Positions 48,177-64,000 of a DNA stretch of 64,000 nt are shown piece by piece. Numbering within the stretch: position 1 is the stretch's first letter; each line of letters opens with the position of its first letter. Source of the DNA: Roseivivax halodurans JCM 10272 (GTDB lineage: Bacteria; Pseudomonadota; Alphaproteobacteria; Rhodobacterales; Rhodobacteraceae); the NCBI RefSeq assembly GCF_000521785.1, contig NZ_JALZ01000001.1, forward strand, positions 434,001-498,000, given 5' to 3'. The position numbers and the translations under genes are program-made. The notes under the pieces were generated by a model, which saw only the letters and a program-made list of their open reading frames with translations, made no database searches and was not told where the DNA came from.

Positions 48177-48237
48177 GTCGCCCTCCCGCAGCATCCGGAT
48201 CCCTCGATAGCGGGCGCCGGGGCGGGAGGGAAGTGGT

Positions 48238-48831
48238 TCAGGACGCGGCGCTCGTCGGGCGTTTCGGATAAAGGACCACGAGCGAGTTCATCGGCACCTT
48301 GTCGTAGAGATGCGTCATGTGCTCGTTGACGAGACCGGCGCAGCCGTTCGAGACCGCCCGTCCGATGGTCGCCGGATCGTTCGTGCCGTGAATGCGGAGG
48401 AACGTGTCCCCCCGCTCCTCGGTGAAGAGATAGAGCGCCCGTGCCCCAAGCGGATTGTCGGGCCCGCCGGGCATGCCGTCCTCGTATTGCTTGTACTTCT
48501 CGGGCTCGCGCTCGATCATGCCGGGGGTCGGTGTCCAGGAGGGCCATTCCTTCTTTGCACCGACATAGAAGGTGCCCGTCTCGTAGAGATTGTCGCGGCC
48601 GACGCGGATGGGATAGACCCACGCGAAGCCGTCCGGGAGTGTCCAGTAGAGCCGGAAGGCATCGGGAAAGACATGGACCTGGTAAGGCGGCAGAGGCTGG
48701 GCGAGCTCGACGATGTGGGGCGCCATCAGTCCGGGAACTTCGGCCTCGGTTTGGACCTGGTTCTGTGCCCGCACCAGCGCGGGCGTGCCCGCCAACGCCA
48801 GGCCTCCGGCGATCATCTCTCTTCGATTCAT
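48238..48831 (-). CDS. L,D-transpeptidase (YkuD domain)
   Basis: A 197-residue exported enzyme that cross-links peptidoglycan or attaches proteins to it. The signal MNRREMIAGGLALAGTPALV has a twin-Arg and may use Tat. The YkuD catalytic block is intact: RIHGTNDPATIGRAVSNGC, with the nucleophile Cys and upstream His. The ATG at 48831 follows AGGCAGG; earlier ATGs would add a non-signal leader. Confidence 0.9.
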   Translation of the reverse strand: MNRREMIAGGLALAGTPALVRAQNQVQTEAEVPGLMAPHIVELAQPLPPYQVHVFPDAFRLYWTLPDGFAWVYPIRVGRDNLYETGTFYVGAKKEWPSWTPTPGMIEREPEKYKQYEDGMPGGPDNPLGARALYLFTEERGDTFLRIHGTNDPATIGRAVSNGCAGLVNEHMTHLYDKVPMNSLVVLYPKRPTSAAS

Positions 48832-49009
48832 GTCCTGCCTCAAATCACGGGTACTGAAGATGTAATTGTGGGAACTGCCCCAGAGTTCCGGCGCAACCCT
48901 ATCACAGAAACGGTGACGTCGCGGTCTCTTTCGAGCGAGCAGCCGATCCGGCGGGACTGACATGCACCTGCGCGGTGGCATGTGACACGCCCGCAAGCAG
49001 CTCCCATCA

Positions 49010-49642
49010 TCAATCCTGGCGCAGCCGGATATCGGGTTTTCGGCTCCGTGTGGCGACGAGACGACCGTTGGGCAGGTCGTTATCCTCCAGCTTTGAGTGG
49101 ATCTCGGGTTCGGCCAGACCGTGGCCGGTCCAGCGTTCCACGAGGCGCGCGCGCAAAATGTCTTCTGGCACGTCGATCAGCACGGTCAGATCGAAGAGGG
49201 GGGCGAGCCGGTCCCATGGCCTCTCGTCCAGCAGGAGGTAGTTTCCTTCCACCAGGACGATTTCGACGGTTTTTGGGATCGTCCGGGCCCCCGCGCGCGC
49301 GATCTCGATCTTTCGATCGAAGACCGGGACGGCGATCTCGTCATCGGCATTCTCGCGCAGCCGGCCGATCATGTGCGCAAGTCCTCCGACGTCGAATGTG
49401 TGTGGTGCGCCCTTGCGCGCGCGCCATCCGCGATCCTCGAGCAGCAGGTCATCGTAATGGTACCCGTCCATCGCCAGGATGGAGGCCCGACCGGGTCTGT
49501 CACTGTTGATCGTAGCGGCCAACCTCTCGGCGGTTGTGGACTTGCCCGACCCCGGCGCTCCGACGATGGCCACCAGCTGGCGGCGCGGCGGCAGGTCGGA
49601 AAGGCGGGCGGCGAGATCGTCTTGCGAGAGTGTTTCTGTCAT
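49010..49642 (-). CDS. Nucleoside/sugar kinase-like P-loop protein (FrcK-like)
   Basis: A 210-residue P-loop kinase of the uridine kinase/phosphoribulokinase fold. Walker A is VAIVGAPGSGKSTTAERL; MDGYHYDD and EGNYLLLDERPWDRLAPL are typical of the FrcK/PanK-like branch. Homologues often sit beside sugar ABC transporters. The substrate is unknown; fructose or a nucleoside-like sugar is possible given the neighbouring polyol genes. Confidence 0.8.
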   Translation of the reverse strand: MTETLSQDDLAARLSDLPPRRQLVAIVGAPGSGKSTTAERLAATINSDRPGRASILAMDGYHYDDLLLEDRGWRARKGAPHTFDVGGLAHMIGRLRENADDEIAVPVFDRKIEIARAGARTIPKTVEIVLVEGNYLLLDERPWDRLAPLFDLTVLIDVPEDILRARLVERWTGHGLAEPEIHSKLEDNDLPNGRLVATRSRKPDIRLRQD

Positions 49643-49769
49643 CGGATCGGCCGGTACTGACTCGCATTTGACGTGAGGGGCTTCGAAAGATCTCGGATAG
49701 CTTGCGGCAGATCGCAAGTCCCTGGATCAGTCTCGGGCGCGGATTTCTCCAAGGGACCGAGCACGGCGG

Positions 49770-50582
49770 CTATGCGCGGTAGCTCGAGGGAGCGCCGATC
49801 GCGGCGCTCAGCGATTGCGCCGCGCCCACCACATGAACGGCAATGTTCGCGATCCGGTCCCGGCCGAAACGTGCGACCGGACCCGAAACCGAGATCCCCG
49901 CCGCGGCATCGCCCGAGGCGTCGAAGACCGGGGCGGCGACGCAAAACATGCCTTCGGTCTTTTCCTCCTCGTCCACCGCGTAGCCGCGTTCGCGGGTGAG
50001 GTCGCAATCCGTCAGAAGCGCGGCGCGCGTGGTCAGGGTGGAGGCGGTGAAGCCGGGCAGCGGCACGGAGAGAAACGCGTCGAACCGCTCCTGCGGCATG
50101 TGGGCGAGAAGGGCCTTTCCGATGCCGGAGGCGTGGAGCGGCGAGAGTGTGCCGGGAGGAAAGAAGGCACGGATCGGCGCGTGCGTCTCGGCCTGGCTGA
50201 CGAAGAGAACCGAGCGTTCCCGAACCATCCCGAGATTTGCGGTCTCGCCGGTGGCTTCCATCAGGCGGCGCAGGATCGGCTTCGCCCGTTCCACGATGGA
50301 GGTGCGACGCAGGAACTGCGCCCCGATCACGAAGGCCTGCGCACCCATCGACCAGGTCTGAAGATCGCGGTCGAACTCGACGAGCCCGCGCCCTTCGAGA
50401 GTGACGAGGGTCCGGTAGACGGTCGCCGGGGCCTGCCCGAGCCCAGCGGCAAGATCCGAGAGCGTCAGACCCTGATGCGCGCTCACATATTGCAGCACCT
50501 CCATGGCCCGGTCGAGCGACTTGATCATGTACTCGCCGCGGTTGTCGCGCCAGCCGCGCGGACGCCCTCTAGTCCGACGCAT
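49770..50582 (-). CDS. bhcR: IclR-family regulator of the beta-hydroxyaspartate cycle
   Basis: A 270-residue IclR regulator: basic N-terminal tail (MRRTRGRPRGWRD), winged HTH (LTLSDLAAGLGQAPATVYRT), and an effector domain (about 95-265; GKALLAHMPQERFDAFL, ERGYAVDEEEKTEGMFCVAA). In Paracoccus denitrificans BhcR senses glyoxylate and controls bhcABCD. It is divergent from bhcA with a 192-base gap holding a palindrome. The ATG at 50582 keeps the basic tail seen in relatives; one 18 codons later lacks a ribosome binding site. Confidence 0.9.
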   Translation of the reverse strand: MRRTRGRPRGWRDNRGEYMIKSLDRAMEVLQYVSAHQGLTLSDLAAGLGQAPATVYRTLVTLEGRGLVEFDRDLQTWSMGAQAFVIGAQFLRRTSIVERAKPILRRLMEATGETANLGMVRERSVLFVSQAETHAPIRAFFPPGTLSPLHASGIGKALLAHMPQERFDAFLSVPLPGFTASTLTTRAALLTDCDLTRERGYAVDEEEKTEGMFCVAAPVFDASGDAAAGISVSGPVARFGRDRIANIAVHVVGAAQSLSAAIGAPSSYRA

Positions 50583-50635
50583 CCGAGGTGTCGCTTCCTC
50601 GCCCAATGTCGTTATCTCCGCCGCATGAATTCGAG

Positions 50636-50690
50636 TTTCACATTGTGAAAAATATAAGGCGTTGACAGGACAGGAGCAATTGCAAATATG
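50636..50690. promoter_or_regulatory. bhcR/bhcA divergent promoters with BhcR-type palindrome
   Basis: TTTCACATTGTGAAA (50636-50650) is a perfect 15-bp palindrome of the IclR type. On the plus strand TTGACA (50662) with a weak AATATG 17 bases on suits bhcA. On the minus strand TTGCTC-N17-TATATT places the bhcR -10 against the palindrome, consistent with autoregulation. Confidence 0.55.
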
Positions 50691-50774
50691 TCCGTGATGG
50701 TGATTGCTGCGAAATAATTGTGCGCACTCGTTGCCGTTCGTATGGTCGAACTCCGTCCCGTGCGAGGTGCCAGA

Positions 50775-51962
50775 ATGCATTTTCAGAATCCGGTCTTCAT
50801 CCCCGGCCCGACGAACATCCCGGAAAGGTTGCGCCGCGCCTGCGACTTGCCGACCATCGACCACCGCTCGCCGCGCTTCGGCGACATCCTGCATCCCGCC
50901 CGCGAGGGCGTGCGTCGGGTAATGAAGTCCGAGACAGCCGAGATCTTCCTCTTTCCGGCGTCCGGAACAGGCGGCTGGGAGGCGGCGATCACCAACACTC
51001 TGTCTGCCGGCGATCGCGTCCTCGTCTCGCGCTACGGGATGTTCAGCCATCGCTGGATCGATCTCTGCCAACGTCACGGGCTCGACGTCACGATCATCGA
51101 TGCCCCCTGGGGAGACGCGCTTCCCGTGGAGCGCTGCGCCGAGGTTCTGGCTGCGGATAAGTCGCACGAATACAAGGCCGTTCTCGCCACCCACAACGAG
51201 ACGGCGACGGGCGTGAGGTCGGATATCGCGGGCCTCAGGCGCGCGATGGACGGGGCAGGGCATCCGGCGCTGCTCATGGTCGACGGCGTGAGCTCCATCG
51301 CCTCCATGGACTTCCGGTTCGACGAGTGGCGGGTCGACGTGGCGGTCACGGGCTCGCAGAAGGGCTTTATGCTGCCTCCGGGTCTCGCGATCCTCGGCTT
51401 CAGCCAGAAGGCGATGGCCGCATCGAAAGAGGCGCGTCTGTCGCGGACCTATTTCGACGTCCACGACATGGCCAAGGGATACGCCCAGAACGCCTATCCC
51501 TACACGCCGACGCCGGGTCTTCTGAACGGGCTGGCGATGGCCTGCGACATGCTTCTAGACGAGGGACTCGAGAACGTCTTCGCCCGGCACCACCTTATTG
51601 CCGAGGGCGTGCGCGCGGCGGTGCGGGCCTGGGGTCTCGAGCTCTGTGCCACCGCCCCCGAGATCTCGTCCGACACGGTCAGCGCCATCCGCACGCCCGA
51701 GGGGTTCGACGCGTCCCGGATCGTCGCACATGCGGCGCAGACTTACGACGTCGCCTTCGGCGCCGGTCTCGGGGAAGTTGCCGGAAAGGTGTTCCGCATC
51801 GGACATCTGGGCAGCCTGACCGACGTCATGGCTCTGGCTGGCCTCGCGACCGCCGAGATGTGCATGGTGGATCTCGGCCTCGACATCCGGCTGGGGTCCG
51901 GAGTCGCTGCGGCACAGGAATTTTACCGGACCGAGCAGGGCCTTCGCGCGGTGGCGGCATGA
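50775..51962 (+). CDS. bhcA: Aspartate-glyoxylate aminotransferase
   Basis: A 395-residue class V aminotransferase. In the beta-hydroxyaspartate cycle BhcA moves the amino group of aspartate to glyoxylate, giving glycine and oxaloacetate. N-terminal NPVFIPGPTNIPERLRRA, PLP loop PASGTGGWEAAI, LMVDGVSSIASMDF, and Schiff-base Lys in VTGSQKGFMLPPG. GAGGTG precedes the ATG at 50775. Its stop overlaps bhcB (ATGA). Confidence 0.93.
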   Translation: MHFQNPVFIPGPTNIPERLRRACDLPTIDHRSPRFGDILHPAREGVRRVMKSETAEIFLFPASGTGGWEAAITNTLSAGDRVLVSRYGMFSHRWIDLCQRHGLDVTIIDAPWGDALPVERCAEVLAADKSHEYKAVLATHNETATGVRSDIAGLRRAMDGAGHPALLMVDGVSSIASMDFRFDEWRVDVAVTGSQKGFMLPPGLAILGFSQKAMAASKEARLSRTYFDVHDMAKGYAQNAYPYTPTPGLLNGLAMACDMLLDEGLENVFARHHLIAEGVRAAVRAWGLELCATAPEISSDTVSAIRTPEGFDASRIVAHAAQTYDVAFGAGLGEVAGKVFRIGHLGSLTDVMALAGLATAEMCMVDLGLDIRLGSGVAAAQEFYRTEQGLRAVAA

Positions 51963-52936
51963 GCGAAGCGGTCATCGACCTTGTCGTCCCGACCTATGAC
52001 GACATGCTTGCAGCGCGCGACCGGATTTCTCCGCATGTCACGCGCACCCCCGTTTTGCGATCTGACTATCTCGATGAGCTGTCGGGCGCCGAGCTCTTCT
52101 TCAAGTGCGAGAATTTCCAGGAGGCCGGCGCATTCAAGGTACGGGGGGCGACCAACGCGGTCTTCGGCCTGCCGGACCGGCAGATGGCCAAGGGCGTCGC
52201 GACACATTCCTCGGGCAACCATGCCTTGTCGCTGAGTTGGGCCGCGGGGCGTCGCGGAATTCCATGCAACGTGGTGATGCCGAGAACGGCACCGCAGGCC
52301 AAGAAGGACGCGGTGCGCCGCTACGGCGGGACGATCACCGAGTGCGAGCCGTCGACCTCGTCGAGAGAAGAGGTCTTTGCCAAGGTGCAGGCTCGCACCG
52401 GGGCCGAGTTCGTCCATCCCTACAACGACTCGCGCGTGATCGCGGGGCAGGGCACATGCTCGGCCGAGCTCATGGAGCAGACCGACGGGCTCGATATCGT
52501 CACCGCGCCCATCGGCGGCGGCGGCATGATCTCGGGCACCTGCCTCACGCTCTCGAGGCTCGCGCCGGAGGTGCAGATCATCGCCGCCGAGCCGGAGCAG
52601 GCGGATGATGCCTGCCGCAGCTTCAAGGCCGGGCGCATCATTGCCGACGATGCGCCCGAGACCATCGCGGACGGTCTGAAGGTGCCGCTCAAGGAGCTGA
52701 CCTGGCATTTCGTCTCGCGCCACGTGACCGACATCCTGACCGCGTCCGAGGACGAGATCGTCGAGGCGATGAAGATCACGTGGAAGCACCTGCGGATCGT
52801 GATGGAGCCCTCCTGTGCGGTACCGCTCGCGATCATTCTCAAGAACAGGGACCGGTTCGCGGGCAAGCGGGTCGGCGTGATTGTCACCGGTGGCAACGTC
52901 GATCTCGACCGCCTGCCGTGGATGAAGGGAATCTGA
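51959..52936 (+). CDS. bhcB: beta-Hydroxyaspartate dehydratase
   Basis: A 325-residue PLP enzyme of the serine/threonine dehydratase fold. BhcB dehydrates erythro-beta-hydroxyaspartate to iminosuccinate. Schiff-base Lys in NFQEAGAFKVRGATNAV, SSGNHALSLS, phosphate loop APIGGGGMISG, and GVIVTGGNVD. It overlaps bhcA by four bases. Alone it would be called threonine ammonia-lyase-like; the context makes the bhc role clear. Confidence 0.93.
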   Translation: MSEAVIDLVVPTYDDMLAARDRISPHVTRTPVLRSDYLDELSGAELFFKCENFQEAGAFKVRGATNAVFGLPDRQMAKGVATHSSGNHALSLSWAAGRRGIPCNVVMPRTAPQAKKDAVRRYGGTITECEPSTSSREEVFAKVQARTGAEFVHPYNDSRVIAGQGTCSAELMEQTDGLDIVTAPIGGGGMISGTCLTLSRLAPEVQIIAAEPEQADDACRSFKAGRIIADDAPETIADGLKVPLKELTWHFVSRHVTDILTASEDEIVEAMKITWKHLRIVMEPSCAVPLAIILKNRDRFAGKRVGVIVTGGNVDLDRLPWMKGI

Positions 52937-52939
52937 CCC

Positions 52940-54100
52940 ATGAAGGATCTCAACTTCGACGAGCTGGAGGTGGGTTTTGATGTTCCCGCTGTGCCCGGCA
53001 TGGCCGAGGCCGACATCCAGACCCCCTGCCTTGTCCTCGATCTCGACGCGCTCGAGCGCAACATCAGGAAGATGGGAGATTATGCCCGTGCGCACGGGAT
53101 GCGCCACCGGGTTCACGGCAAGATGCACAAGTCGGTGGACGTCGCGAAACTGCAGATGGAGCTCGGCGGTGCGGTCGGCGTCTGCTGCCAGAAGGTCAGC
53201 GAGGCCGAGGTCTTCGCCCGCGGCGGGATCCGCGACGTGCTCGTGTCGAACCAGGTGCGGGATCCGCAGAAAATCGACCGGCTCGCGCGGATGCCGAAGC
53301 TCGGCGCGCGGACGATCTGCTGCGTCGACGACTTTGCCAACGTGGCCGAACTCTCGGCGGCAGCTCAGAAACACGGCACCCAGATCGAATGCCTCGTCGA
53401 GATCGATTGCGGCGCGGGGCGCTGCGGCGTGACGACGACCCCCGCAGTGGTCGAGATCGCCAAGGCGATCGATGCCGCGCCGGGGCTGAAGTTTGCCGGT
53501 CTCCAAGCCTATCAGGGCGCGATGCAGCATCTCGACAGCTACGAGGACCGCAAGGCCAAGATCGACATCGCGGTCGAGATGGTGCGGTCCGCCATGGAGG
53601 GGCTGAAGGACGAGGGATTGACCTGCGACATCGTAGGCGGCGGCGGCACGGGCTCGTATTATTTCGAGAGCGCGTCCGGCGTCTACAACGAGCTGCAATG
53701 CGGCTCCTATGCCTTCATGGACGCCGATTACGGGCGCATCCTCGACCAGGACGGCAAGCGCATCGACCAGGGCGAATGGGAGAACGCGATGTTCCTCCTC
53801 ACCCAGGTGATGAGCCACGCCAAGGCCGAAAAGGCGATTTGCGACGCGGGCCTCAAGGCGCAATCGGTCGACAGCGGCCTGCCGGTTGTCTTCGGGCGCA
53901 CGGATGTCGAATACGTCAAATGCTCCGACGAACACGGCGTCATTTCCGACCCGGGCAGCGCGCTGAAGGTGGGGGACAAGCTGCGGCTCGTGCCCGGGCA
54001 CTGCGACCCGACCGCCAATGTGCACGACTGGTATGTGGGCGTGAGGAACGGAAGCGTCGAAACGCTCTGGCCCGTCAGCGCGCGCGGGAAGGCCTACTGA
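52940..54100 (+). CDS. bhcC: beta-Hydroxyaspartate aldolase
   Basis: A 386-residue DSD1/D-threonine-aldolase-type enzyme (alanine racemase N-terminal barrel). BhcC joins glycine and glyoxylate to form erythro-beta-hydroxyaspartate. QTPCLVLDLDALERNIRKM, the PLP-Lys region HRVHGKMHKSVDVAK, EIDCGAGRCGV, and metal-binding HCDPTANVHDWYVG at the C-terminus. It starts three bases after bhcB. Confidence 0.93.
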   Translation: MKDLNFDELEVGFDVPAVPGMAEADIQTPCLVLDLDALERNIRKMGDYARAHGMRHRVHGKMHKSVDVAKLQMELGGAVGVCCQKVSEAEVFARGGIRDVLVSNQVRDPQKIDRLARMPKLGARTICCVDDFANVAELSAAAQKHGTQIECLVEIDCGAGRCGVTTTPAVVEIAKAIDAAPGLKFAGLQAYQGAMQHLDSYEDRKAKIDIAVEMVRSAMEGLKDEGLTCDIVGGGGTGSYYFESASGVYNELQCGSYAFMDADYGRILDQDGKRIDQGEWENAMFLLTQVMSHAKAEKAICDAGLKAQSVDSGLPVVFGRTDVEYVKCSDEHGVISDPGSALKVGDKLRLVPGHCDPTANVHDWYVGVRNGSVETLWPVSARGKAY

Positions 54101-54104
54101 CCGA

Positions 54105-55070
54105 ATGATCATCGTTCCGGAGAAAGACATCGCGGACCTTATGACGCGCGAGGCCGCCTTCGCGGCAGTGGAACAGGTCTTTGCCGCCATGGCGTCGGGG
54201 GATGCCTACAATTTCCCCGTGGTGCGCGAGGCGATAGGCCATGCCGACGCGCTTTACGGGTTCAAGGGTGGGTTCGACAGGTTGGGTGGCGTTCTCGGCC
54301 TGAAGGCGGGCGGCTACTGGCCGCACAACCTCGAGACGCACGGGATCATCAACCACCAGTCGACCGTGTTTCTCTTCGATCCGGACACGGGGCGCGTCGC
54401 TGCAATGGTCGGCGGCAATCTCCTGACTGCGCTGCGTACCGCCGCGGCCTCCTCCGTGTCCATCCGCCATCTGGCCCGGGAGGACGCCGAGGTGCTTGGC
54501 ATGATCGGCGCCGGCCATCAGGCGGCATTCCAGCTGCGCGCGGCGCTCGAGCACCGCAGCTTCGGGAAGGTCGTCGGCTGGAACTACCACCCCGAGATGC
54601 TGCCGAACCTCGAGAAGGTCGCAGCAGAGGCAGGCGTGGCCTTCGAGGCGGTCGATCTGCCGGGGATGAGAGAGGCCGACGTGATCGTCACCATCACCTC
54701 GTCTTTCGACGCGACGCTCATGGCGGAACACGTTGCCCCCGGCACACATGTCGCCTGCATGGGGACCGACACGAAGGGCAAGCAGGAAGTCGATCCGGCC
54801 TTGCTCGCCGCCGCGACGGTCTTCGCCGACGAGATCGCCCAATCGGTCAGCATAGGCGAGGCGCAGCATGCGGTAAGCGCCGGACTGATTTCGGAGAGTG
54901 ACATCGCCGAACTCGGCGCGGTCATCAACGGCAGCCATCCGGGTCGCCGCTCGGACGAGGAGATCACGCTCTTCGACGGGACCGGCGTCGGGCTGCAGGA
55001 CCTTGCCGTCGCGGCGGCGGTGGTGGCGCTCGCCAGGGCCAACGACACTGCGATCGAGGTGGAGGTCTGA
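54105..55070 (+). CDS. bhcD: Iminosuccinate reductase
   Basis: A 321-residue ornithine-cyclodeaminase/mu-crystallin-family reductase. BhcD reduces iminosuccinate to L-aspartate with NADH, closing the cycle. GNLLTALRTAAASSVSIRHL and the Rossmann loop LGMIGAGHQAAFQLRAAL are typical; CMGTDTKGKQEVDP follows. It starts four bases after bhcC. The next gene in the same direction follows after 22 bases. Confidence 0.93.
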   Translation: MIIVPEKDIADLMTREAAFAAVEQVFAAMASGDAYNFPVVREAIGHADALYGFKGGFDRLGGVLGLKAGGYWPHNLETHGIINHQSTVFLFDPDTGRVAAMVGGNLLTALRTAAASSVSIRHLAREDAEVLGMIGAGHQAAFQLRAALEHRSFGKVVGWNYHPEMLPNLEKVAAEAGVAFEAVDLPGMREADVIVTITSSFDATLMAEHVAPGTHVACMGTDTKGKQEVDPALLAAATVFADEIAQSVSIGEAQHAVSAGLISESDIAELGAVINGSHPGRRSDEEITLFDGTGVGLQDLAVAAAVVALARANDTAIEVEV

Positions 55071-55092
55071 TGCCAAGGCGGGGAGAGAAATC

Positions 55093-55947
55093 ATGTTGAC
55101 CAACATCCTCGTCCCGGTGCGCGGCGACGGCATGGTCGGGACGGTCCTCGGACACGCGGCCGCGCTCGCGCGGCACCACAAGGCGCATGTGATGGTTGTG
55201 CATTGCCGTCCGCCGCCACGCGACCTCATCCCGCATACCACGATGCTTCCGGGCTTCGCGCGGCAGACCTTCCTCAGCCAGGCTGAGGAATTGGCCGACC
55301 GTCAGGAGGATCACCTTCGCCGCAGCCTGCATGTTCTCGCGGCCGAATACGGTCTCGAAGAGGGAGATCCCCGGCCGGGTCAGGCAGCGACCTGCGAATT
55401 CATCGAAGAGCCCGGCAAGATGGCGGACGTCGTGAAGCACAACGGGCGCCTTGCCGACCTCATCGTTGTGGCCAAGCCGCAGCGGGAGCGGAATCTCGGG
55501 GAGACGACGCTGAAATCGGCCATCTTCGGTTCGGGTCGTCCGGTGATGGTCTGCCCGGGACAGGTGCAGCCCGACGCCGGCTTCGGCCGGCACGTGGCGA
55601 TCGGCTGGAATGGCTCGCTGCCGGCCTCGCGAGCCGTCGCGATGACCCTTGATCTCGTGTCGGCCGCCGAGACCGTCACGATCCTGACGGGCAACAAGGG
55701 TCAGCCGCACGGCGCCTCCACCGAAGAGCTGGTCAAATACTACGCCCTTCGCGGCGTGGAGGCAGCGATCGTCCCCTTCGAGTCGCGGTCGCCGGCCAAG
55801 GCGCTGCTGCGGCTGGCGAAGGAATGCGGGGCCAGCCTGCTGATCACCGGGGCCTACAGCCACAGCCAGGGCTCGGACATGCTCTTCGGAGGCAACACCC
55901 AGGTGCTCGTGGACGAGCTGACGCAGCCGGTTGTCATGGCGCATTGA
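55093..55947 (+). CDS. Tandem universal stress protein (UspA family)
   Basis: A 284-residue protein with two Usp domains: the first from MLTNILVPVRGDGMVGTVLG, the second from about residue 155 (GRHVAIGWNGSLPASRAVAM) ending SHSQGSDMLFGGNTQVLVDE, with a GxxGS/G-type ATP-binding segment. Usp proteins are often cotranscribed with TRAP and TTT transporters. Here it joins bhcD (22-base gap) to tctC, and may monitor energy state for the importer. Confidence 0.88.
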   Translation: MLTNILVPVRGDGMVGTVLGHAAALARHHKAHVMVVHCRPPPRDLIPHTTMLPGFARQTFLSQAEELADRQEDHLRRSLHVLAAEYGLEEGDPRPGQAATCEFIEEPGKMADVVKHNGRLADLIVVAKPQRERNLGETTLKSAIFGSGRPVMVCPGQVQPDAGFGRHVAIGWNGSLPASRAVAMTLDLVSAAETVTILTGNKGQPHGASTEELVKYYALRGVEAAIVPFESRSPAKALLRLAKECGASLLITGAYSHSQGSDMLFGGNTQVLVDELTQPVVMAH

Positions 55948-56068
55948 GCGCCGCATCGGCGGTTTCGGAACGGGGCGGCGGGGAGGCCGCGACCCGACAG
56001 GATCTCCGCCCGGAAGCGGGCGGTACGACGGAGGCCCGCGAAGGCGGGGACAAAAAGGGAGGAAAGAC

Positions 56069-57040
56069 ATGATCATCACCAAGCGCACCTTCATCGGCGC
56101 TGCCGCAGCCGCCATGCTTGCGGCCCTGCCGATCTCGGCCTCGGCGCAGGGCTGGGAGCCGAGACGGCCCATCGACTTCGTCATCATGGCCGGTCCCGGA
56201 GGTGGCGCCGACCAGATCGCCCGCTTCATCCAGTCGGTGGCCGAGAAGAACGACATGACCAGCCGTCCGCTAGTTCCGAACAACAAGGGCGGCGGCTCTG
56301 GCGCCGAGGCTCTGCTCGCGCTCAAGGATGCGCGCGACAAGGATCATACGTTGCTGGTGACGCTGAACTCGTTCTTCACGACGCCTCTCAGGCAGGAAGG
56401 GCTCGGCGTCGATGTGCAGGAGTTCACTCCGATCGCGATGATGGGCGTCGATCCGTTCGTGCTTTGGGTCCATGCGGATTCCGGCATCACGACGTTCGAG
56501 CAGTTCGTCGAGGAGGCGAAGGCGATGGACGGCGAGTTCGTCATGGGTGGCACCGGAAAGGGACAGGAGGATTCCATCGTCATCGCGTACCTCGCGGGGG
56601 CCTACGGGCTCACTCTCAAGTACATTCCCTATGACGGGGGCGGTGCGGTCGCCAAGGATCTGGCCGGCAAGCAGATCATGGCGACGGTGAACAACCCGGC
56701 AGAAGCCAAGGGCTTCTACGAGTCGGGCGACTTCGTGCCGCTTCTCGCGTTCTCGGACGAGCGCATGGAGTCCTTTCCGGACGTGCCGACCTTGAAGGAG
56801 AAGGGACACGACTTCTCCTATTACAACCAACGGGCCATCGTCGGCGCCCCGGGCATGTCGGAGGAAGCGGCCGAGTATTACCGGACCCTCTTTGCGCAGG
56901 TCTACGATAGCCCGGAATGGCAGGGCTACCTCGAGTCCGAGAGCCTCTCGCCGATGCCGATGAATGCGGAGGAGACGCGCGCCTATTGGGACACGCAGCT
57001 CCAGAACCATCGCGATCTGCTCCAGCAGGTCGACGGCTGA
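56069..57040 (+). CDS. tctC: TTT transporter substrate-binding protein (TctC family)
   Basis: A 323-residue periplasmic protein of the Bug/TctC family. Signal peptide to about residue 28 (AALPISASA|QGW), then WEPRRPIDFVIMAGPGGGADQ, PNNKGGGSGAEALLAL and GGTGKGQEDSI, the ligand-anchoring loops. GGAGGAAAGAC precedes the ATG. The 121-base gap from the Usp gene contains a small stem (CCGCCC/GGGCGG, 56006-56023). The ligand is unknown; a small carboxylate is likely. Confidence 0.9.
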   Translation: MIITKRTFIGAAAAAMLAALPISASAQGWEPRRPIDFVIMAGPGGGADQIARFIQSVAEKNDMTSRPLVPNNKGGGSGAEALLALKDARDKDHTLLVTLNSFFTTPLRQEGLGVDVQEFTPIAMMGVDPFVLWVHADSGITTFEQFVEEAKAMDGEFVMGGTGKGQEDSIVIAYLAGAYGLTLKYIPYDGGGAVAKDLAGKQIMATVNNPAEAKGFYESGDFVPLLAFSDERMESFPDVPTLKEKGHDFSYYNQRAIVGAPGMSEEAAEYYRTLFAQVYDSPEWQGYLESESLSPMPMNAEETRAYWDTQLQNHRDLLQQVDG

Positions 57041-57059
57041 GCCGGGCGAGGGGGGCGGA

Positions 57060-57563
57060 ATGCGCAAGGGTGAAATCTCTCTGGCGGGTCTTCTGACCCT
57101 CCTTTCCCTCTATCTGATGTGGAAGAGCACGGAATTGCCGGTCGGCTACATCCGGGGCGAGGGGCCGGGCGGCGGAGCCTGGCCGTTCTGGCTGTCGGTG
57201 ATCATGCTCCTGTCCTGCATCGCTATCGCCGTGAACTGGTGGCGGGGGACAAGCCCGCCATCACGCTCCGAGGAGGCGATGCTCGACAGCTACGGTTGGC
57301 GCACGCTTCTGCTGGTGGGGGGCGGGGTCGCGGTCTTCGTGGCGCTCATCAACATCGTGTCCATGTACGGCGCGATCGCGATCTTTCTCTTCTATTACAT
57401 GCGCCTGCTCGGTCGGCATTCGCTGCTTCTGACATCGACGATCGCACTGGTCACGCCTGTCGCCATGTTCTTCTTCTTCGAAGGCGCGATGCAGATCCCG
57501 ATGCCGCAGGGCATGGCGTTCACGCAGCCGGTCTTCGACGTGCTCTACGACATTCTCTACTGA
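57060..57563 (+). CDS. tctB: TTT transporter small membrane subunit (TctB family)
   Basis: A 167-residue membrane protein with four helices, of which LLTLLSLYLMWKSTELPVGY opens the protein and FFFFEGAMQIPMPQG lies near the end. It starts 19 bases after tctC with AGGGGGGCGG upstream. Poor sequence conservation is normal for TctB; position between tctC and tctA supports the call. Confidence 0.88.
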   Translation: MRKGEISLAGLLTLLSLYLMWKSTELPVGYIRGEGPGGGAWPFWLSVIMLLSCIAIAVNWWRGTSPPSRSEEAMLDSYGWRTLLLVGGGVAVFVALINIVSMYGAIAIFLFYYMRLLGRHSLLLTSTIALVTPVAMFFFFEGAMQIPMPQGMAFTQPVFDVLYDILY

Positions 57564-57584
57564 CGAAGGTTCCGAAGGGTCGCG

Positions 57585-59102
57585 ATGGAAATCCTATCAC
57601 TGCTTGCCGGCGGCGTGCTCACGGCGCTCGAGCCTCTCAACCTGATGCTGATCATCGCCGGGGTGTCCGTCGGGCTCTTCATCGGCGCGATGCCGGGGCT
57701 CGGATCGGTCAACGGCGTCGCGATCCTCTTGCCGATCACCTTCCTGGTGCCGCCGGGCTCCGCGATCATCTTCCTCGCGGCGATCTATTACGGGGCGATG
57801 TATGGCGGCGCGATCTCGTCGGTGACGCTCGGCATTCCGGGAGCCTCGACCGCGGTCGCAACGACCTTCGACGGCAGGCCCCTTGCGCTGCAGGGGCGCG
57901 CAAGCCTGGCGCTGGTCACCGCCGCGCTGGCGTCCTTCGTCGGCGGATCTGTGGCCAATATCCTGTTCACGCTCTTCGCACCGGTCCTCGCCACGCTTGC
58001 GCTGTCCTTCGGTCCGCCCGAGATCTTCGCGCTGATGCTTCTCGCCTTCGCGACCTTCGTCGGCCTCGGCGGCGACGACATCCCGAAGACGGTGTTCTCG
58101 ATCTGCCTCGGCCTCGTTCTCGCCTCCGTCGGATTCGACACGATCTCGGGCGAGCCGCGGCTGGTGCTCTTCGACATCCCCGGCTTCCTGCGCGGCATTG
58201 GCTTCATCGTGCTGGCCATCGGCGTCTATGGAATCGGAGAGATGCTCTGGACCATCGAGCAGACCCGCGGAGAGGTCACGACCACGAATCCACGCATGAC
58301 CGCGCGCGGCATGATGAACGACACCCGCGAGGCAGTGCAGCGCGGCTGGAAGGGCACGACGATTGGCTCGTTCCTCGGCTTCTTCGTCGGGATACTGCCG
58401 GCGGCCGGTGCTACGCCCGGATCGCTCATGTCCTACGGCGTCGCCAAGATGGTCTCGCGGCGCCCCGAGCTCTTCGGCCGTGGCAACCCCGACGGCGTGG
58501 CCGCGCCCGAGGCCGCGAACAACTCCGCCTCGACGGGCGCCATGCTCCCGATGCTGACGCTTGGCATTCCGGGCTCTCCGACGACGGCGATCCTGCTAGG
58601 GGGAATGGTGATCTGGGGTCTCGTGCCTGGCCCGCGGCTCTTCGTCGATCAGCCGGACTTCGTTTGGGGGCTCATCGGGTCGTTCTACATTTCGAACTTC
58701 GCCGCGGTGCTGATCAACCTCGCCTTCATCCCGCTCTTCGTCTGGATGCTGAGGATGCCGTTCACGATCCTCGCGCCGATGATCTTCGTCCTCTCGATCG
58801 TCGGCGGATACGCGGCCTCGCGGAGCATACACGACCTCTGGCTCATCGTGATCTTCGGGATCAGCGCGTTCTTCCTGCGCAAGTTCGACTACCCGCTGGC
58901 TCCCGCGGTGCTGGCCATCGTGCTCGGCCCGATCGCCGAGCCGACACTGCGGCAATCGCTTCTCCTCTCTTCGGGAGATCCCTCGATCTTCTTCACGCGG
59001 CCGATTTCGGCACCGATCATGGTGTTTGCGATCGTTCTCATCCTGCTGCCGGCGGTGAAGCTGTTCCGGAGGCGCAAGACCGAAACCGCGGCCGCGGAAT
59101 AG
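57585..59102 (+). CDS. tctA: TTT transporter large membrane subunit (TctA family)
   Basis: A 505-residue permease with about twelve helices. The conserved cytoplasmic/membrane signatures are clear: FIGAMPGLGSVNGVAILLPI, YYGAMYGGAISSVTLGIPG, and the inverted second half with GILPAAGATPGSLMSYGVAK and LTLGIPGSPTTAILLGGM. It ends the bhcA-to-tctA plus-strand run and is convergent with the KPR-like gene only five bases away. Confidence 0.93.
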   Translation: MEILSLLAGGVLTALEPLNLMLIIAGVSVGLFIGAMPGLGSVNGVAILLPITFLVPPGSAIIFLAAIYYGAMYGGAISSVTLGIPGASTAVATTFDGRPLALQGRASLALVTAALASFVGGSVANILFTLFAPVLATLALSFGPPEIFALMLLAFATFVGLGGDDIPKTVFSICLGLVLASVGFDTISGEPRLVLFDIPGFLRGIGFIVLAIGVYGIGEMLWTIEQTRGEVTTTNPRMTARGMMNDTREAVQRGWKGTTIGSFLGFFVGILPAAGATPGSLMSYGVAKMVSRRPELFGRGNPDGVAAPEAANNSASTGAMLPMLTLGIPGSPTTAILLGGMVIWGLVPGPRLFVDQPDFVWGLIGSFYISNFAAVLINLAFIPLFVWMLRMPFTILAPMIFVLSIVGGYAASRSIHDLWLIVIFGISAFFLRKFDYPLAPAVLAIVLGPIAEPTLRQSLLLSSGDPSIFFTRPISAPIMVFAIVLILLPAVKLFRRRKTETAAAE

Positions 59103-59106
59103 GAGA

Positions 59107-60084
59107 TCAGGCGTAGAGGCCGGCCACCCTCGCGCGTAGCTGGACGAGCGCCAGCACCGTGTCGATGGTCGATGTCGGCGTGTCGGTGACACGGCCGAGC
59201 TCCTGCACGGATCCGACGAGCGCGTCGATTTCCATGGGCCGCCCCTGATCGAGATCCTGGAGCATCGAGGTCCGGTGCACGCCCACGTCGGCGCCGCCCT
59301 GGATGCGGCGGTCGACATCTATGGGGAACTTGACGCCGAGCTTCTCTGCGATCTCCTGCGCCTCGAGCATCATGCTGCGCGCCACCTCCCGCGTGCCGGG
59401 ATCGGTGCAGAGCACGTCGAGCGTCGCATGAGTCAGGGCCGAGATCGGGTTGAACGAGAGGTTCCCCCAGAGCTTCACCCAGATCTCGTCGCGCAGCTTA
59501 GGGCGGACCGGCGCCTTCAGACCGGCGGCACCCAGGGCCTTGGACAGCGCCGTCGCGCGATCCGATTTCGAGCCGTCCGGCTCACCGAGGGAAAAGCGGT
59601 TACCCTCGATATGTTTGACGACCCCGGGCTCGATTACCTCGGCGGCGGGATATACCACGCAGCCGAGCACCCGGTCGGGGCCGAAGCCGTCCCACTGGGC
59701 ATTGCCGGGATCGACGCTTTCGAGCCGCGTGCCTTCGAGATCGCCACCGATCTTGTGGAAATACCACCATGGCACGCCGTTCACGCCCGAAACGATGGTG
59801 GTGTGTTCGCCGATCAGGGGCTGCATCTTCGGTACGACCGGCGGCACCGAATGGGCCTTGAGCGTCACGATCACGTAATCCTGCGGGCCGAGCTCCGCAG
59901 GATCCTCCGAGGCGGTGACGTCGACGACCGTCTCCTCGCCCTCCTCAATGAGCTTCAGGCCGTTTTCACGCATGGCCTTCAGATGCGGGCCACGGGCGAC
60001 GAGACTGACATCCGCGCCCGCCTGCGCCAGCTTGGCTCCCATATAGCCGCCGATGGCGCCGGCTCCGAACACACAGATCTTCAT
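59107..60084 (-). CDS. 2-Dehydropantoate 2-reductase family protein
   Basis: A 325-residue NADPH-dependent ketopantoate-reductase-fold enzyme. N-terminal Rossmann loop MKICVFGAGAIGGYMGAKL, VTLKAHSVPP, SGVNGVPWWYFHKIGG, catalytic-Lys region RDEIWVKLWGNLSFNPISAL. Many genomes carry several paralogues; its place next to the C2 module and an oxalyl-CoA-ligase-like gene suggests another 2-keto acid or a related reduction instead of pantothenate synthesis. Minus strand, 23 bases after the ligase. Confidence 0.82.
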   Translation of the reverse strand: MKICVFGAGAIGGYMGAKLAQAGADVSLVARGPHLKAMRENGLKLIEEGEETVVDVTASEDPAELGPQDYVIVTLKAHSVPPVVPKMQPLIGEHTTIVSGVNGVPWWYFHKIGGDLEGTRLESVDPGNAQWDGFGPDRVLGCVVYPAAEVIEPGVVKHIEGNRFSLGEPDGSKSDRATALSKALGAAGLKAPVRPKLRDEIWVKLWGNLSFNPISALTHATLDVLCTDPGTREVARSMMLEAQEIAEKLGVKFPIDVDRRIQGGADVGVHRTSMLQDLDQGRPMEIDALVGSVQELGRVTDTPTSTIDTVLALVQLRARVAGLYA

Positions 60085-60107
60085 ATCGGTTTCCTTTCCG
60101 GGGTGTC

Positions 60108-61631
60108 TCAGGCCGTGAGCCCAAGCTTTTCGGCGAGGCCGATACGCTGCAGCTTGCCCGTCGCCCCCTTGGGAATCTCGTCGAGGATGAGCACCTTGCG
60201 CGGCACCTTGAACGCCGCGAGCCGCTCCGCCGCGAAGTCGCGGATCTCGCGCTCGGTCGCCTCGGCGCCGTCGGCAAGGACCACGGCAGCGGCAACTTCC
60301 TCGCCCAGCTTGTCGTGGGGCAGGGCGAAGGTCACGCATTGCGCGATCGCGGGGTGGTCGGACAACACGCCGTCGACTTCGAGCGGGCTGATCTTCTCGC
60401 CGCCGCGATTGATGATCTCCTTCAGCCGGCCGGTCAGCGTCAGGTAGCCCTCGTCGTCGAAGGCGCCCTGATCGCCGGTGCGGAACCAGCGCTTGCCGTC
60501 GGCCTCGAAGAAGTTCTTGGCGTTGGCGTCGGGATTGCCCTCGTAGCCGGGCGTGACGTTCGGCCCCGAGATGACGACTTCGCCAACGCCCTCGATGAGG
60601 TGGTTCTCGGTTTCGTGGGCGATGCGGACCTCGGGACCCGCGGCCAGCCCCACCGCGCCGGGCTTCTGCTTGCCGGGAGCGATCGGGTTGCAGCACATCT
60701 GGTGCGCCGCTTCGGTCATGCCGTAGGCCTCGACCACGGGCGCGCCGAAAGTCTCGGAGAGCTTGGTCATCACCGGGCCGGGCAACGACGACGACGACGA
60801 GCGCAGCAGCCGCAGCCGCGCTTTCTCGATGGTCTCCTTGTTCCGCGCCGCGCGGGCGAGGATGGCCTGGTGCATGGTCGGCACCGCCGTGTACCAGGTC
60901 GGATCGGTCTCCTCGATCCAGCCGAAGAACTTCAGCGCGTCGAAGCCGGGCGCGCAGGAGATCGAGGCCCCCGACGCGAGGGACGCGCTCACTGCCGCGA
61001 TCAGGCCGTGGATGTGAAAGAGGGGCATCACGTTGAGGCAGCGATCCTCGGACGTCAGGTCCAGCGACGCCTCGACGTTCTTGGCCGACGCCGCCACGTT
61101 CGATTGCAGGAGCGGCACGATCTTGGGCCGCGACGTGGTACCCGAGGTGTGCAGGATGAGGGCGACGTCACCGGGGCCCGGCATCGTCTCGGAGCTTGTC
61201 GGGCTGGGATCGCCGACGGGCGAGAGCGTGAATGCGCCAGCCGGTTCGTCGGCTATCAGTTCCAGCACCGCGAGGCCGAACCGATCCGCGGCGGCACGAG
61301 CGGGCCCGTCATATCTGGCTTCGACGACGATCGCCTTCGCCTTGAGGTCTTCGAGGTAGAACGCGAACTCGTCCTCGCGGTAGGCAGGATTGAGCGGCGC
61401 GGTCGTGGCGCATTGCGCAATGGTGACGAACGCCGTCGCCATCTCGGGTCCGTTCGGCAGGACGATGGCCACACGGTCGGACGACGCGATGCCGGCGGCC
61501 CGCAGCGCCGTACGCACGCTGTCGGTCAGGCGCCTCAGCCCGTCGTAATCCATCCAGTCGCGCCCCGGTGCGCCGATGGCCGGTGCCGAGCCGGGATGCG
61601 CAAAGATGAGATCCGAAATCGTATCCGCCAT
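60108..61631 (-). CDS. AMP-forming acyl-CoA ligase, oxalyl-CoA-synthetase-like (AAE3/Pcs60 type)
   Basis: A 507-residue ANL-superfamily ligase. Motifs: HTSGTTSRPKIVPLLQSN (P-loop), MPLFHIHGLIAAVSASL, WYTAVPTMHQAIL, PVVEAYGMTEAAHQM, FRTGDQGAFDDEGYL, and the C-terminal catalytic Lys in KGATGKLQRIG. The FHxHGL, WYTAVPTxHQ and TSRPKxVPL combination matches oxalate-CoA ligases of the AAE3/Pcs60 group rather than fatty-acid ligases. GGGAGGA precedes the ATG at 61631. It likely cotranscribes with the KPR-like gene. Confidence 0.8.
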   Translation of the reverse strand: MADTISDLIFAHPGSAPAIGAPGRDWMDYDGLRRLTDSVRTALRAAGIASSDRVAIVLPNGPEMATAFVTIAQCATTAPLNPAYREDEFAFYLEDLKAKAIVVEARYDGPARAAADRFGLAVLELIADEPAGAFTLSPVGDPSPTSSETMPGPGDVALILHTSGTTSRPKIVPLLQSNVAASAKNVEASLDLTSEDRCLNVMPLFHIHGLIAAVSASLASGASISCAPGFDALKFFGWIEETDPTWYTAVPTMHQAILARAARNKETIEKARLRLLRSSSSSLPGPVMTKLSETFGAPVVEAYGMTEAAHQMCCNPIAPGKQKPGAVGLAAGPEVRIAHETENHLIEGVGEVVISGPNVTPGYEGNPDANAKNFFEADGKRWFRTGDQGAFDDEGYLTLTGRLKEIINRGGEKISPLEVDGVLSDHPAIAQCVTFALPHDKLGEEVAAAVVLADGAEATEREIRDFAAERLAAFKVPRKVLILDEIPKGATGKLQRIGLAEKLGLTA

Positions 61632-61949: not shown

Positions 61950-64000
61950 ATGCCGGAACTGAAGCACATCGAGGTACGCGGCGCGCGCGAGCACAACCTC
62001 AAGGGCATCGACGTCGACATCCCCCGCGACCAGCTCGTGGTCATCACGGGGCTGTCCGGGTCGGGCAAGTCGAGCCTCGCCTTCGACACGATCTACGCCG
62101 AGGGGCAGCGGCGATACGTGGAATCGCTTTCCGCCTACGCTCGCCAGTTCCTCGACATGATGGAGAAGCCGGACGTCGATCACATCTCGGGTCTCTCGCC
62201 CGCGATCTCCATCGAGCAGAAGACCACGTCGAAGAACCCGCGCTCGACCGTCGGCACGGTGACTGAAATCTATGATTACCTGCGTCTGCTCTTCGCCCGC
62301 GTCGGCACGCCCTATTCACCCGCGACCGGCCTGCCGATCGAGGCGCAGCAGGTGCAGGACATGGTCGATGCGGTGATGAAGATGGAGGAGGGCACCCGCG
62401 GCTACCTCCTCGCGCCCATCGTGCGGGACCGGAAGGGCGAGTACCGCAAGGAATTCCTCGAGCTGCGCAAGCAGGGCTTCCAGCGTGTGAAGGTCGACGG
62501 GCAGTTCCACGAGCTCGACGATCCGCCGACGCTCGACAAGAAGTACCGCCACGACATCGACGTCGTGGTCGACCGCATCGTCGTGCGCGAGGGCATGGAG
62601 ACGCGGCTCGCCGACAGCTTCCGCACCGCGCTCGACCTCGCCGACGGGATCGCGGTGCTCGAGACCGCTCCGCGCGAGGGTGAAGGAGAGTCCGAGCGGA
62701 TCACCTTCTCGGAAAACTTCGCGTGTCCGGTCAGCGGCTTCACCATCCCCGAGATTGAACCGAGGCTCTTTTCGTTCAACGCGCCCTTCGGCGCGTGCCC
62801 CGATTGCGACGGCCTCGGGGTGGAGCTCTTCTTCGACGATCGGCTCGTTGTCCCGGACGCGAACCTCACGATCAAGAACGGCGCCATCGCGCCATGGCGC
62901 AAGGGCAAGTCACCGTATTTCACCCAGACGATCCAGGCGATCGCCAAGCATTACGAGTTCGACGCCAATACCAAGTGGGTCGATCTCCCGGAGCACGTCA
63001 AACAGGTGTTCCTCTTCGGTTCGGGCGAGGAGGAGATTCCCTTCCGCTACGACGAGGGCGGGCGCGTCTACAATGTCACCCGCGTCTTCGAAGGCGTGAT
63101 TCCGAACATGGAACGGCGCTACCGGGAGACGGATTCGAGCTGGGTGCGCGAGGAATTCGAGCGCTACCAGAACAACAAGCCCTGCTCGTCCTGCGGCGGC
63201 TACCGCCTGCGCGAAGAGGCGCTCGCGGTGAAGATCGGCAAGCTGCATATCGGCGAAGTGGTCGAGATGTCGATCAAGGGCGCCTACGACTGGGCCGGCG
63301 GCGTGCCCGAGAACCTCACCCAACAGAAGAACGAGATCGCCAAGGCGATCCTCAAGGAGATCCGAGAGCGGCTCGGCTTTCTCAACAATGTCGGGCTCGA
63401 ATACCTGACGCTGTCGCGAGCCGCCGGGACGCTTTCTGGCGGGGAAAGCCAAAGGATCCGGCTCGCCAGCCAGATCGGTTCGGGCCTCACCGGCGTTCTC
63501 TACGTGCTCGACGAGCCCTCGATCGGTCTCCACCAGCGCGACAACGACCGCCTCCTCGGAACGCTCAAGAACCTGCGCGACCAGGGCAACACGGTCATCG
63601 TGGTTGAGCACGACGAAGAGGCCATCCGCGAAGCCGATTACGTCTTCGACATAGGCCCAGGCGCGGGTGTGCATGGCGGGCAGGTGATCGCCCACGGCAC
63701 GCCGCAGGAGGTCGCGGCGACCGAAGGCAGCATCACAGGCGAGTACCTCTCGGGCGTGCGCGAGATCGCGGTGCCCAGCGTGCGCCGCAAGGGTAACAAG
63801 AAGAAGCTGCGGATCGAGAAGGCGTCGGGCAACAACCTGCGCGACGTCTCGGTCGACTTCCCGCTCGGCAAGTTCGTCTGCGTCACCGGCGTGTCGGGTG
63901 GCGGCAAGTCGACGCTTACCATCGAGACGCTCTACAAGACGGCCGCGACGCGCCTCAACGGTGCGCGCGAGACGCCGGCGCCCTGCCAGACGATCAAGGG
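61950..64000 (+). CDS. uvrA: Excinuclease ABC subunit A, 3' end beyond the window
   Basis: UvrA recognises damaged DNA and loads UvrB in nucleotide excision repair. The frame runs open from ATG 61950 to the last base; 683 of about 950 residues are present. First nucleotide-binding site: Walker [20 protein letters not shown]; signature [20 protein letters not shown]; Walker [15 protein letters not shown]; second Walker [11 protein letters not shown] near the end. In the first zinc module the usual CPVCG reads CPVSG, with CPDC retained, as in many alphaproteobacterial UvrA proteins. An SOS box lies upstream. Confidence 0.97.

Follow-up and report, generated by a model that had tools for sequence, protein, structure and literature searches.

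A putative oxalate uptake and assimilation module beside the beta-hydroxyaspartate cycle genes of Roseivivax halodurans

We analyzed a 64,000-nucleotide stretch of the Roseivivax halodurans JCM 10272 genome (contig NZ_JALZ01000001.1, positions 434,001 to 498,000; hereafter the window), in which reading of the open reading frames (ORFs) places eleven genes, from bhcR to a CoA ligase gene, at positions 49770-61631. Homology, gene context and phylogenetic trees together suggest, with a probability of about 0.8, that these genes form an oxalate uptake and assimilation module, in which oxalate is converted via oxalyl-coenzyme A (oxalyl-CoA) to glyoxylate, the substrate of the beta-hydroxyaspartate cycle. 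TctC, the binding protein of a tripartite tricarboxylate transporter (Tct), would capture periplasmic oxalate and TctAB would import it, with the adjacent universal stress protein (Usp) probably tuning the importer. The ligase would make oxalyl-CoA from oxalate, spending ATP and CoA, and an enzyme resembling ketopantoate reductase (KPR-like) would reduce oxalyl-CoA to glyoxylate for consumption by BhcA and BhcC. The cycle would then turn two glyoxylate into one oxaloacetate without loss of CO2. Co-transcription of the module and flux through it are predictions from sequence.

The ligase gene (60108-61631, minus strand) encodes a protein whose four best solved relatives are all oxalate-CoA ligases (5ie0, 6qjz, 8aff and 8atd; best E-value 4.8e-121), and the next solved relative is a malonyl-CoA synthetase (3.4e-57). 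We take 5ie0 to be AtAAE3, 6qjz the Lathyrus enzyme and 8aff yeast Pcs60. In the alignment, His310, which follows the MTEA motif, is common to the solved oxalate-CoA ligases, and the malonyl-CoA synthetase has no histidine aligned to it. This residue is kept in all of the 77 further distinct ligase homologues with at least 50% identity (78 distinct sequences including the window protein), and it may take part in oxalate binding. No NCBIfam model matched the ligase above cut-off among the matches listed. The structural relatives and the shared histidine argue strongly for an oxalyl-CoA synthetase (oxalate--CoA ligase) of the AAE3/Pcs60 kind; it differs from the solved enzymes 5ie0, 6qjz and 8aff in being bacterial and paired with a reductase.

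That partner, the KPR-like gene (59107-60084, minus strand), is co-directional with the ligase gene, with 23 bases between them. Its product matches PF02558 and PF08546, which denote the ApbA/PanE domain family and are silent on substrate, and an NCBIfam 2-dehydropantoate 2-reductase subfamily model (548 bits, cut-off 223). It is 62% identical to a homologue of Cupriavidus metallidurans, 54% to one of Oxalobacter paraformigenes and 54% to one of Methylorubrum rhodesianum, a sister species of the M. extorquens from which PanE2 comes. PanE2 has been characterised as a putative oxalyl-CoA reductase and used for converting oxalyl-CoA to glyoxylate (PMC8411744; papers with PMC numbers are cited here from partial text), and panE2 has been engineered into yeast for the same reduction (PMC12686821). 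In C. necator, ApbA2 is 51% identical to PanE2 and its gene lies near frc-oxc; deletion of apbA2 lengthened the doubling time on oxalate from 6.5 to 10 h (PMC7486775).

The neighbourhoods of this reductase point in the same direction. We fetched 81 loci, comprising the best 80 of 589 relatives from a scan of named genomes and one Methylobacterium plasmid; the query was a Methylobacterium protein, so the loci sample that side of the family, and M. extorquens possibly falls outside the best 80. A gene for the ligase, the oxalate antiporter OxlT, oxalyl-CoA decarboxylase (OXC) or formyl-CoA transferase (FRC) was present in the fetched flanks of 63 of the 81 loci, or 66 when Tct is counted (ligase 42, OxlT 29, TctA 24, FRC 15, OXC 10). 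None of the five was found in 15 loci, that of O. paraformigenes itself included. Methylobacterium and Methylorubrum loci have the order oxlT-reductase-ligase. In annotated plasmid records, the homologue of Azospirillum is near oxlT and an NAD(P) transhydrogenase gene and that of Phyllobacterium near gcl, transhydrogenase and frc genes; in the Skermanella record, only the transhydrogenase was seen of these neighbours. Within the family of the window genome, the ligase adjoins the reductase in 32 of 34 loci besides the window, the exceptions being L085 and L087 (L and G numbers are our handles for loci and genomes). The same search found no oxalate enzyme genes beside five reductase relatives of 39-43% identity from other settings, two of them homoprotocatechuate-type clusters. 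In the reductase tree, four of these five distant relatives fall outside the main set and one lies among it on a long branch. Taken together, homology and neighbourhood argue strongly that the KPR-like gene encodes an oxalyl-CoA reductase of the PanE2/ApbA2 kind, probably using NADPH.

The importer is a complete Tct system on the plus strand, with the periplasmic binding protein TctC (56069-57040, PF03401), the small membrane subunit TctB (57060-57563, PF07331) and the large membrane subunit TctA (57585-59102, PF01970) all above Pfam gathering scores. Close relatives of usp-tctCBA elsewhere in the family follow genes for a GntR regulator, OXC, FRC, a formyltransferase-like protein and, in many cases, formate-tetrahydrofolate ligase (FTHFS). 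In one such locus (L094), OXC scored 974 bits (cut-off 739) and FRC 698 bits (cut-off 504), and the TctC encoded behind oxc-frc-fhs-usp is 73% identical to that of the window. A second Tct sub-group stands directly before the ligase-reductase genes, with a divergent ScfRs-type regulator, in 9 of the 34 reductase loci. On the betaproteobacterial side, co-directional ligase-tct-reductase runs contain a Tct that is more distant (TctA 44-48% identical).

The TctA tree places the window protein with its counterparts from two congeners and G066, within a clade of 20 rows. This clade contains 12 oxc-frc-linked rows, one gammaproteobacterial row beside frc, and four rows without adjacent oxc or frc in the fetched stretch, one of which (L093) begins with formyltransferase-like and FTHFS genes at the contig start. 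Outside it (100/99) lie nine other TctA proteins, taken from the window genome, from congeners and from one additional member of the family. Among 149 genomes of the family, 29 have this kind of TctA (E-value 1e-150 or better), 15 have OXC above cut-off and 35 have the reductase (1e-60 or better). TctA is present in 12 of the 15 OXC genomes (p 1e-7) and 15 of the 35 reductase genomes (p 2e-4), and OXC or the reductase in 26 of the 29 TctA genomes (p 1.5e-12), p values that count related genomes as independent and include the window genome. The other three TctA genomes are G014 and G059, which have a frc-type cluster next to tct, and G140, which has neither; the OXC genomes without this TctA are G037, G054 and G109.

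Beside PanE2-type genes, OxlT and Tct were never found together in the 50 loci with full flanks: OxlT occurs in 21, Tct in 20 and neither in nine (p 2e-7; the other 31 of the 81 loci, all under 12,900 bases in length, are not part of this test). The simplest interpretation is that Tct takes the place of OxlT. Phylogeny and gene context thus point to oxalate as the ligand of the window TctC. TctC-type receptors are thought to bind varied carboxylates, and a C. metallidurans paper lists oxalate among the acids that they might bind, so the general idea of oxalate as a TctC ligand has already been voiced (PMC2864759, partial text). In the open literature (most subscription papers lay outside the search) we found no passage assigning or testing an oxalate-binding Tct, and nothing joining oxalate with tctC and oxalyl-CoA decarboxylase, Tct transport with oxalyl-CoA, or Roseobacter with oxalyl-CoA.

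The two-domain Usp (55093-55947, plus strand; two stretches matching PF00582) travels with this TctCBA. A usp homologue directly precedes the tct genes in 14 fetched loci (L085, L089, L091-L094, L096, L097, L101-L103, L266, L267 and L270), and the clusters L098-L100, which are linked to oxc or frc, showed no such homologue. Because the 14 include both oxc-frc and ligase-reductase settings, Usp appears to belong with the importer and not with bhc. A parallel exists in the Halomonas ectoine transporter TeaABC, where the Usp-superfamily protein TeaD is encoded with a binding-protein-dependent secondary transporter and reported to modulate its activity (PMC9006882). That transporter is of the TRAP family and has another substrate; by analogy, the window Usp probably tunes its Tct importer.

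Several of the loci compared had further features. Runs of GntR-oxc-frc-formyltransferase-like-FTHFS-usp-tctCBA occur in L094 (123-10600), L101, L102, L270 and others, and their formyltransferase-like and FTHFS genes suggest that the C1 unit of oxalate is also assimilated via tetrahydrofolate. Besides the nine reductase loci with the second Tct sub-group there is a tenth, L085 (genome G004), in which genes for frc, formyltransferase-like, FTHFS, usp and tctCBA and a reductase homologue (57%) come after an oxc that, judged from coordinates, lies at the edge of the locus; both oxalate routes stand together there without an adjacent ligase. Near oxc-frc-tct clusters there is a BhcA-like aminotransferase, 52-55% identical to the window BhcA (L097:13573-14763, L102:14841-16031 and L270:3200-4360), which is possibly another glyoxylate aminotransferase; it is accompanied by a conserved 350-residue protein (c16) with a weak ApbA match. 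In the Tct-frc-FTHFS clusters of L099 and L100 (G014 and G059), a thiamine diphosphate enzyme lies between GntR and frc, the expected place of oxc; it scores far under the OXC cut-off (194 and 204 bits), and its substrate may differ. Ligase-reductase pairs were also seen with ABC importer genes, a GntR-type regulator and a FAH-family hydrolase (L037:7458-14981, L071:6605-14210 and L269:1060-9990), and these ABC genes are candidates for a third type of oxalate importer.

The genes upstream of usp are those of the beta-hydroxyaspartate cycle. Four contiguous plus-strand genes match NCBIfam equivalogs above cut-off: bhcA (50775-51962; L-aspartate--glyoxylate aminotransferase, NF045640, 727 bits, cut-off 650), bhcB (51959-52936; beta-hydroxyaspartate dehydratase, NF045641, 584 bits, cut-off 550), bhcC (52940-54100; 3-hydroxy-D-aspartate aldolase, NF045642, 761 bits, cut-off 690) and bhcD (54105-55070; iminosuccinate reductase, NF045643, 573 bits, cut-off 500). 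At the level of sequence, these matches identify the four enzymes. Start codons of the genes given here are our choice, and bhcA has an alternative start at 50718 (TTG). The divergent bhcR (49770-50528, minus strand) encodes an IclR-type regulator with IclR domains in Pfam, for which the BhcR model is by far the best NCBIfam family at 348.7 bits, 1.3 bits under the cut-off of 350. At the other end, 4 bases separate tctA from the convergent KPR-like gene. The initial annotation of this locus, which began at 50583 in the bhcR-bhcA intergenic region, had described bhcABCD-usp-tctCBA as co-directional with gaps of 22, 121, 19 and 21 bases after bhcD and the bhc part as established, and both statements hold. 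Its placing of the facing ligase with AAE3/Pcs60 agrees with the solved relatives, and its idea that oxalate could be fed via oxalyl-CoA to glyoxylate gains from these and from the oxalate genes beside the reductase relatives. It had left the importer ligand, Usp and the KPR-like enzyme unassigned; neighbourhood and phylogeny now allow them to be read as an oxalate importer, its associated Usp and a PanE2-kind reductase. A separate terminator before usp, which it had also considered, did not appear: a consensus scan of the bhcD-usp gap, which covers not all promoter types, gave no terminator- or promoter-like site.

The join between bhc and the oxalate genes is real but not widely conserved. 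Besides the co-occurrence tests, which used the 149 genomes, 394 genomes were searched for the reductase only (E-value 1e-115), followed by a search for bhcC and TctA in 56 genomes, namely 53 reductase-positive ones outside the 149 (G152 included) and the congeners G150, G151 and G155. Of the genomes examined, 66 have both bhcC and the reductase (three are congeners from the genus search), and the two genes lie within 12 kb of each other in five (G115, G000, G098, G024 and G328). Random placement would give about 0.4, assuming a 4 Mb genome and ignoring contig breaks (p 5e-5, or 6.6e-4 without the window genome, given as well because that genome was chosen for this linkage). Distances are differences of the first coordinates listed, with approximate reductase places in G150, G151 and G155; the first of two bhcC copies was used in G055 and G181, and in G382 the second, 60% identical copy, which touches only a 40 kb count. 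The linked genomes have three importer settings, the window type, the second Tct type (G115, G098 and, by identity and coordinates, G328) and the ABC type (G024), which suggests that the linkage was assembled repeatedly.

A search of nine genomes of the genus, the window genome included, with the DNA from bhcD to the ligase revealed varied layouts. G150 shares the window's layout of usp-tctCBA facing kpr-lig but carries bhc on a separate contig; in G155, usp-tctCBA-lig-kpr all run the same way, and bhc is about 1.2 Mb from the reductase; G152 combines the second Tct type with lig-kpr, with bhcC 25 kb from the reductase; and in G151, lig-kpr is accompanied by ABC, GntR and FAH-type genes, with bhc on a different contig. 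G154 has the oxc-frc-usp-tct type, and the genus DNA search detected no such module in G149, G153 and G156. Thus, several kinds of oxalate module exist within one genus. What recurs is usp-tctCBA accompanied by ligase-reductase or by oxc-frc, and bhc linkage is uncommon. Given the arrangement in G150 and the five linked genomes among 66, we rejected the full run from bhc to tctA as a conserved unit, and a conserved transcript is not supported.

A number of observations weigh against the oxalate module. Linkage to bhc is uncommon, and it is missing in the reductase-bearing congeners G150, G151 and G155. Genome-wide in the 149, reductase and bhcC show no significant association (23 of 35 versus 55 of 114, p 0.083); OXC and bhcC do show one (14 of 15 versus 64 of 134, p 7e-4). 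In the reductase tree, the window protein belongs to a Rhodobacter-side group beside, not within, the Methylobacterium-Oxalobacter group, and the comparison with PanE2 runs through a sister species. Six of the nine outgroup TctA proteins are on very long branches, and all of the statistical tests count related genomes as independent, with the window genome among the 149. In the different setting of L261, a TctC-type gene is annotated close to a reductase relative of 40% identity, so Tct neighbours are no proof of oxalate. Finally, Paracoccus denitrificans, the model organism for bhc, is reported not to grow on oxalate, and in vitro oxalate tightens the promoter binding of its BhcR, which glyoxylate loosens (PMC11323563, partial text).

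We weighed four other explanations. The most serious is that bhc, as a glycolate/glyoxylate operon, and the oxalate genes are two working units that adjoin by chance, with neither a shared transcript nor selected coupling. It accords with the separation of bhc from the oxalate genes in G150, G151 and G155, and bhc can have its own feed, since a different contig of the window genome carries glcDEF-like genes for glycolate oxidase (GlcF scores above its cut-off, GlcD and GlcE under theirs). The 22-base bhcD-usp gap with no terminator-like site speaks against it, as does proximity of bhcC and reductase in five genomes with three importer settings, above the rough random expectation; we give it a substantial chance but would not favour it. 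Alternatively, only the facing pair might handle oxalate, with Tct importing another small acid that suits the bhc cycle, such as glycolate, glyoxylate or a C4 dicarboxylate. The solved TctC relatives are distant (closest E-value 1.7e-24) and include a terephthalate binder, and the range of carboxylates attributed to such receptors (PMC2864759) leaves room for this. It is nevertheless unlikely, as the links of this Tct clade are with oxc-frc and ligase-reductase genes and not with bhc, and Tct alternates with OxlT. A dedicated glycolate importer was rejected, the glcDEF-like genes being on another contig.

The ligase and reductase could also run in reverse, draining excess glyoxylate to oxalyl-CoA as an overflow. 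The C. necator enzyme has been proposed to act in the glyoxylate-oxidising direction during growth on glycolate (PMC7486775), but the route there uses OXC and FRC, both under cut-off in the window genome, and an oxalate importer would be of no evident use; we consider this very improbable. Slightly less credible still is a true ketopantoate reductase serving pantothenate synthesis and unrelated to the ligase. Its subfamily name in NCBIfam, with a score above cut-off, suggests as much, but we rejected it on gene neighbourhoods, given the ligase adjacent in 32 of 34 family loci, the oxalate genes at 63 of 81 more distant loci, and the relatives of 39-43% identity in other contexts where no oxalate enzyme genes were found.

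If the oxalate module operates as proposed, its physiology should differ from that of known oxalate growth. None of OXC, FRC and GCL is above curated cut-offs in the window genome; with the four Bhc equivalogs present, the result for GCL speaks for the bhc cycle as the glyoxylate sink. Conversion of two oxalate to two glyoxylate takes two activations and two NADPH, and BhcD uses a further reduced cofactor per oxaloacetate. Little net energy would be left by this stoichiometry, and with no OXC or FRC above cut-off, oxalate is predicted to be a carbon co-substrate beside another energy source, not a sole source of carbon and energy. It would thus probably give carbon and not energy. C. necator could no longer grow on oxalate once frc-oxc was lost, presumably because it lacked reducing power (PMC7486775). 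Oxalate sensing by BhcR could matter in an organism like the one studied here.

Each part of the module resembles known kinds. Assimilation of oxalate by oxalyl-CoA reduction was reportedly described in Methylobacterium/Methylorubrum by Schneider in 2012, and the glyoxylate sink of M. extorquens is the serine cycle. The window shares its reductase family with those loci, but has Usp-TctCBA where they have OxlT, and its glyoxylate sink would be the bhc cycle rather than the serine cycle. C. necator, with a reductase homologous to that of the window and the glycerate pathway, needs frc-oxc for oxalate growth and has no beta-hydroxyaspartate aldolase according to the available text (PMC7486775). 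The bhcRABCD cluster of P. denitrificans has a divergent bhcR and the four enzyme genes (PMC11323563), to which four equivalog matches and a divergent probable bhcR correspond in the window; there the cluster adjoins genes for an importer and oxalate enzymes.

Both the combination of parts and the type of oxalate importer appear to be new. On balance we lean towards the view that the beta-hydroxyaspartate cycle serves in nature as a sink that conserves the carbon of oxalate, a further assimilation route next to the serine cycle and the glycerate pathway, and that it is fed by a Usp-TctCBA importer class that replaces OxlT in many Proteobacteria and was exchanged between oxc-frc (decarboxylating) and ligase-reductase (reductive) operons. 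In open papers (most subscription papers were outside the search), we found no passage naming this cycle as the fate of oxalate. A 2026 survey describes oxalate assimilation via Gcl or serine and names OxlT as the oxalate transporter, and the word hydroxyaspartate is absent from its available text (PMC12927642). Oxalate, an acid of plant and fungal origin, is common. If our interpretation is correct, a second class of oxalate importer can be named by gene context, and oxalate joins glycolate and ethylene glycol, the substrates for which this efficient glyoxylate cycle has been described to date. The in vitro response of BhcR to oxalate would gain a reason, and annotated ketopantoate reductases and AMP-binding ligases in many genomes would become readable as oxalate genes.

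Beyond the ligase gene, four ORFs tested at 62402-63695 have no Pfam match. Upstream of bhcR, and with no evident tie to the oxalate/bhc module, the genes at 47490-49717 encode a D-lyxose isomerase family protein, a YkuD-type L,D-transpeptidase and a small P-loop kinase-like protein (49010-49717).

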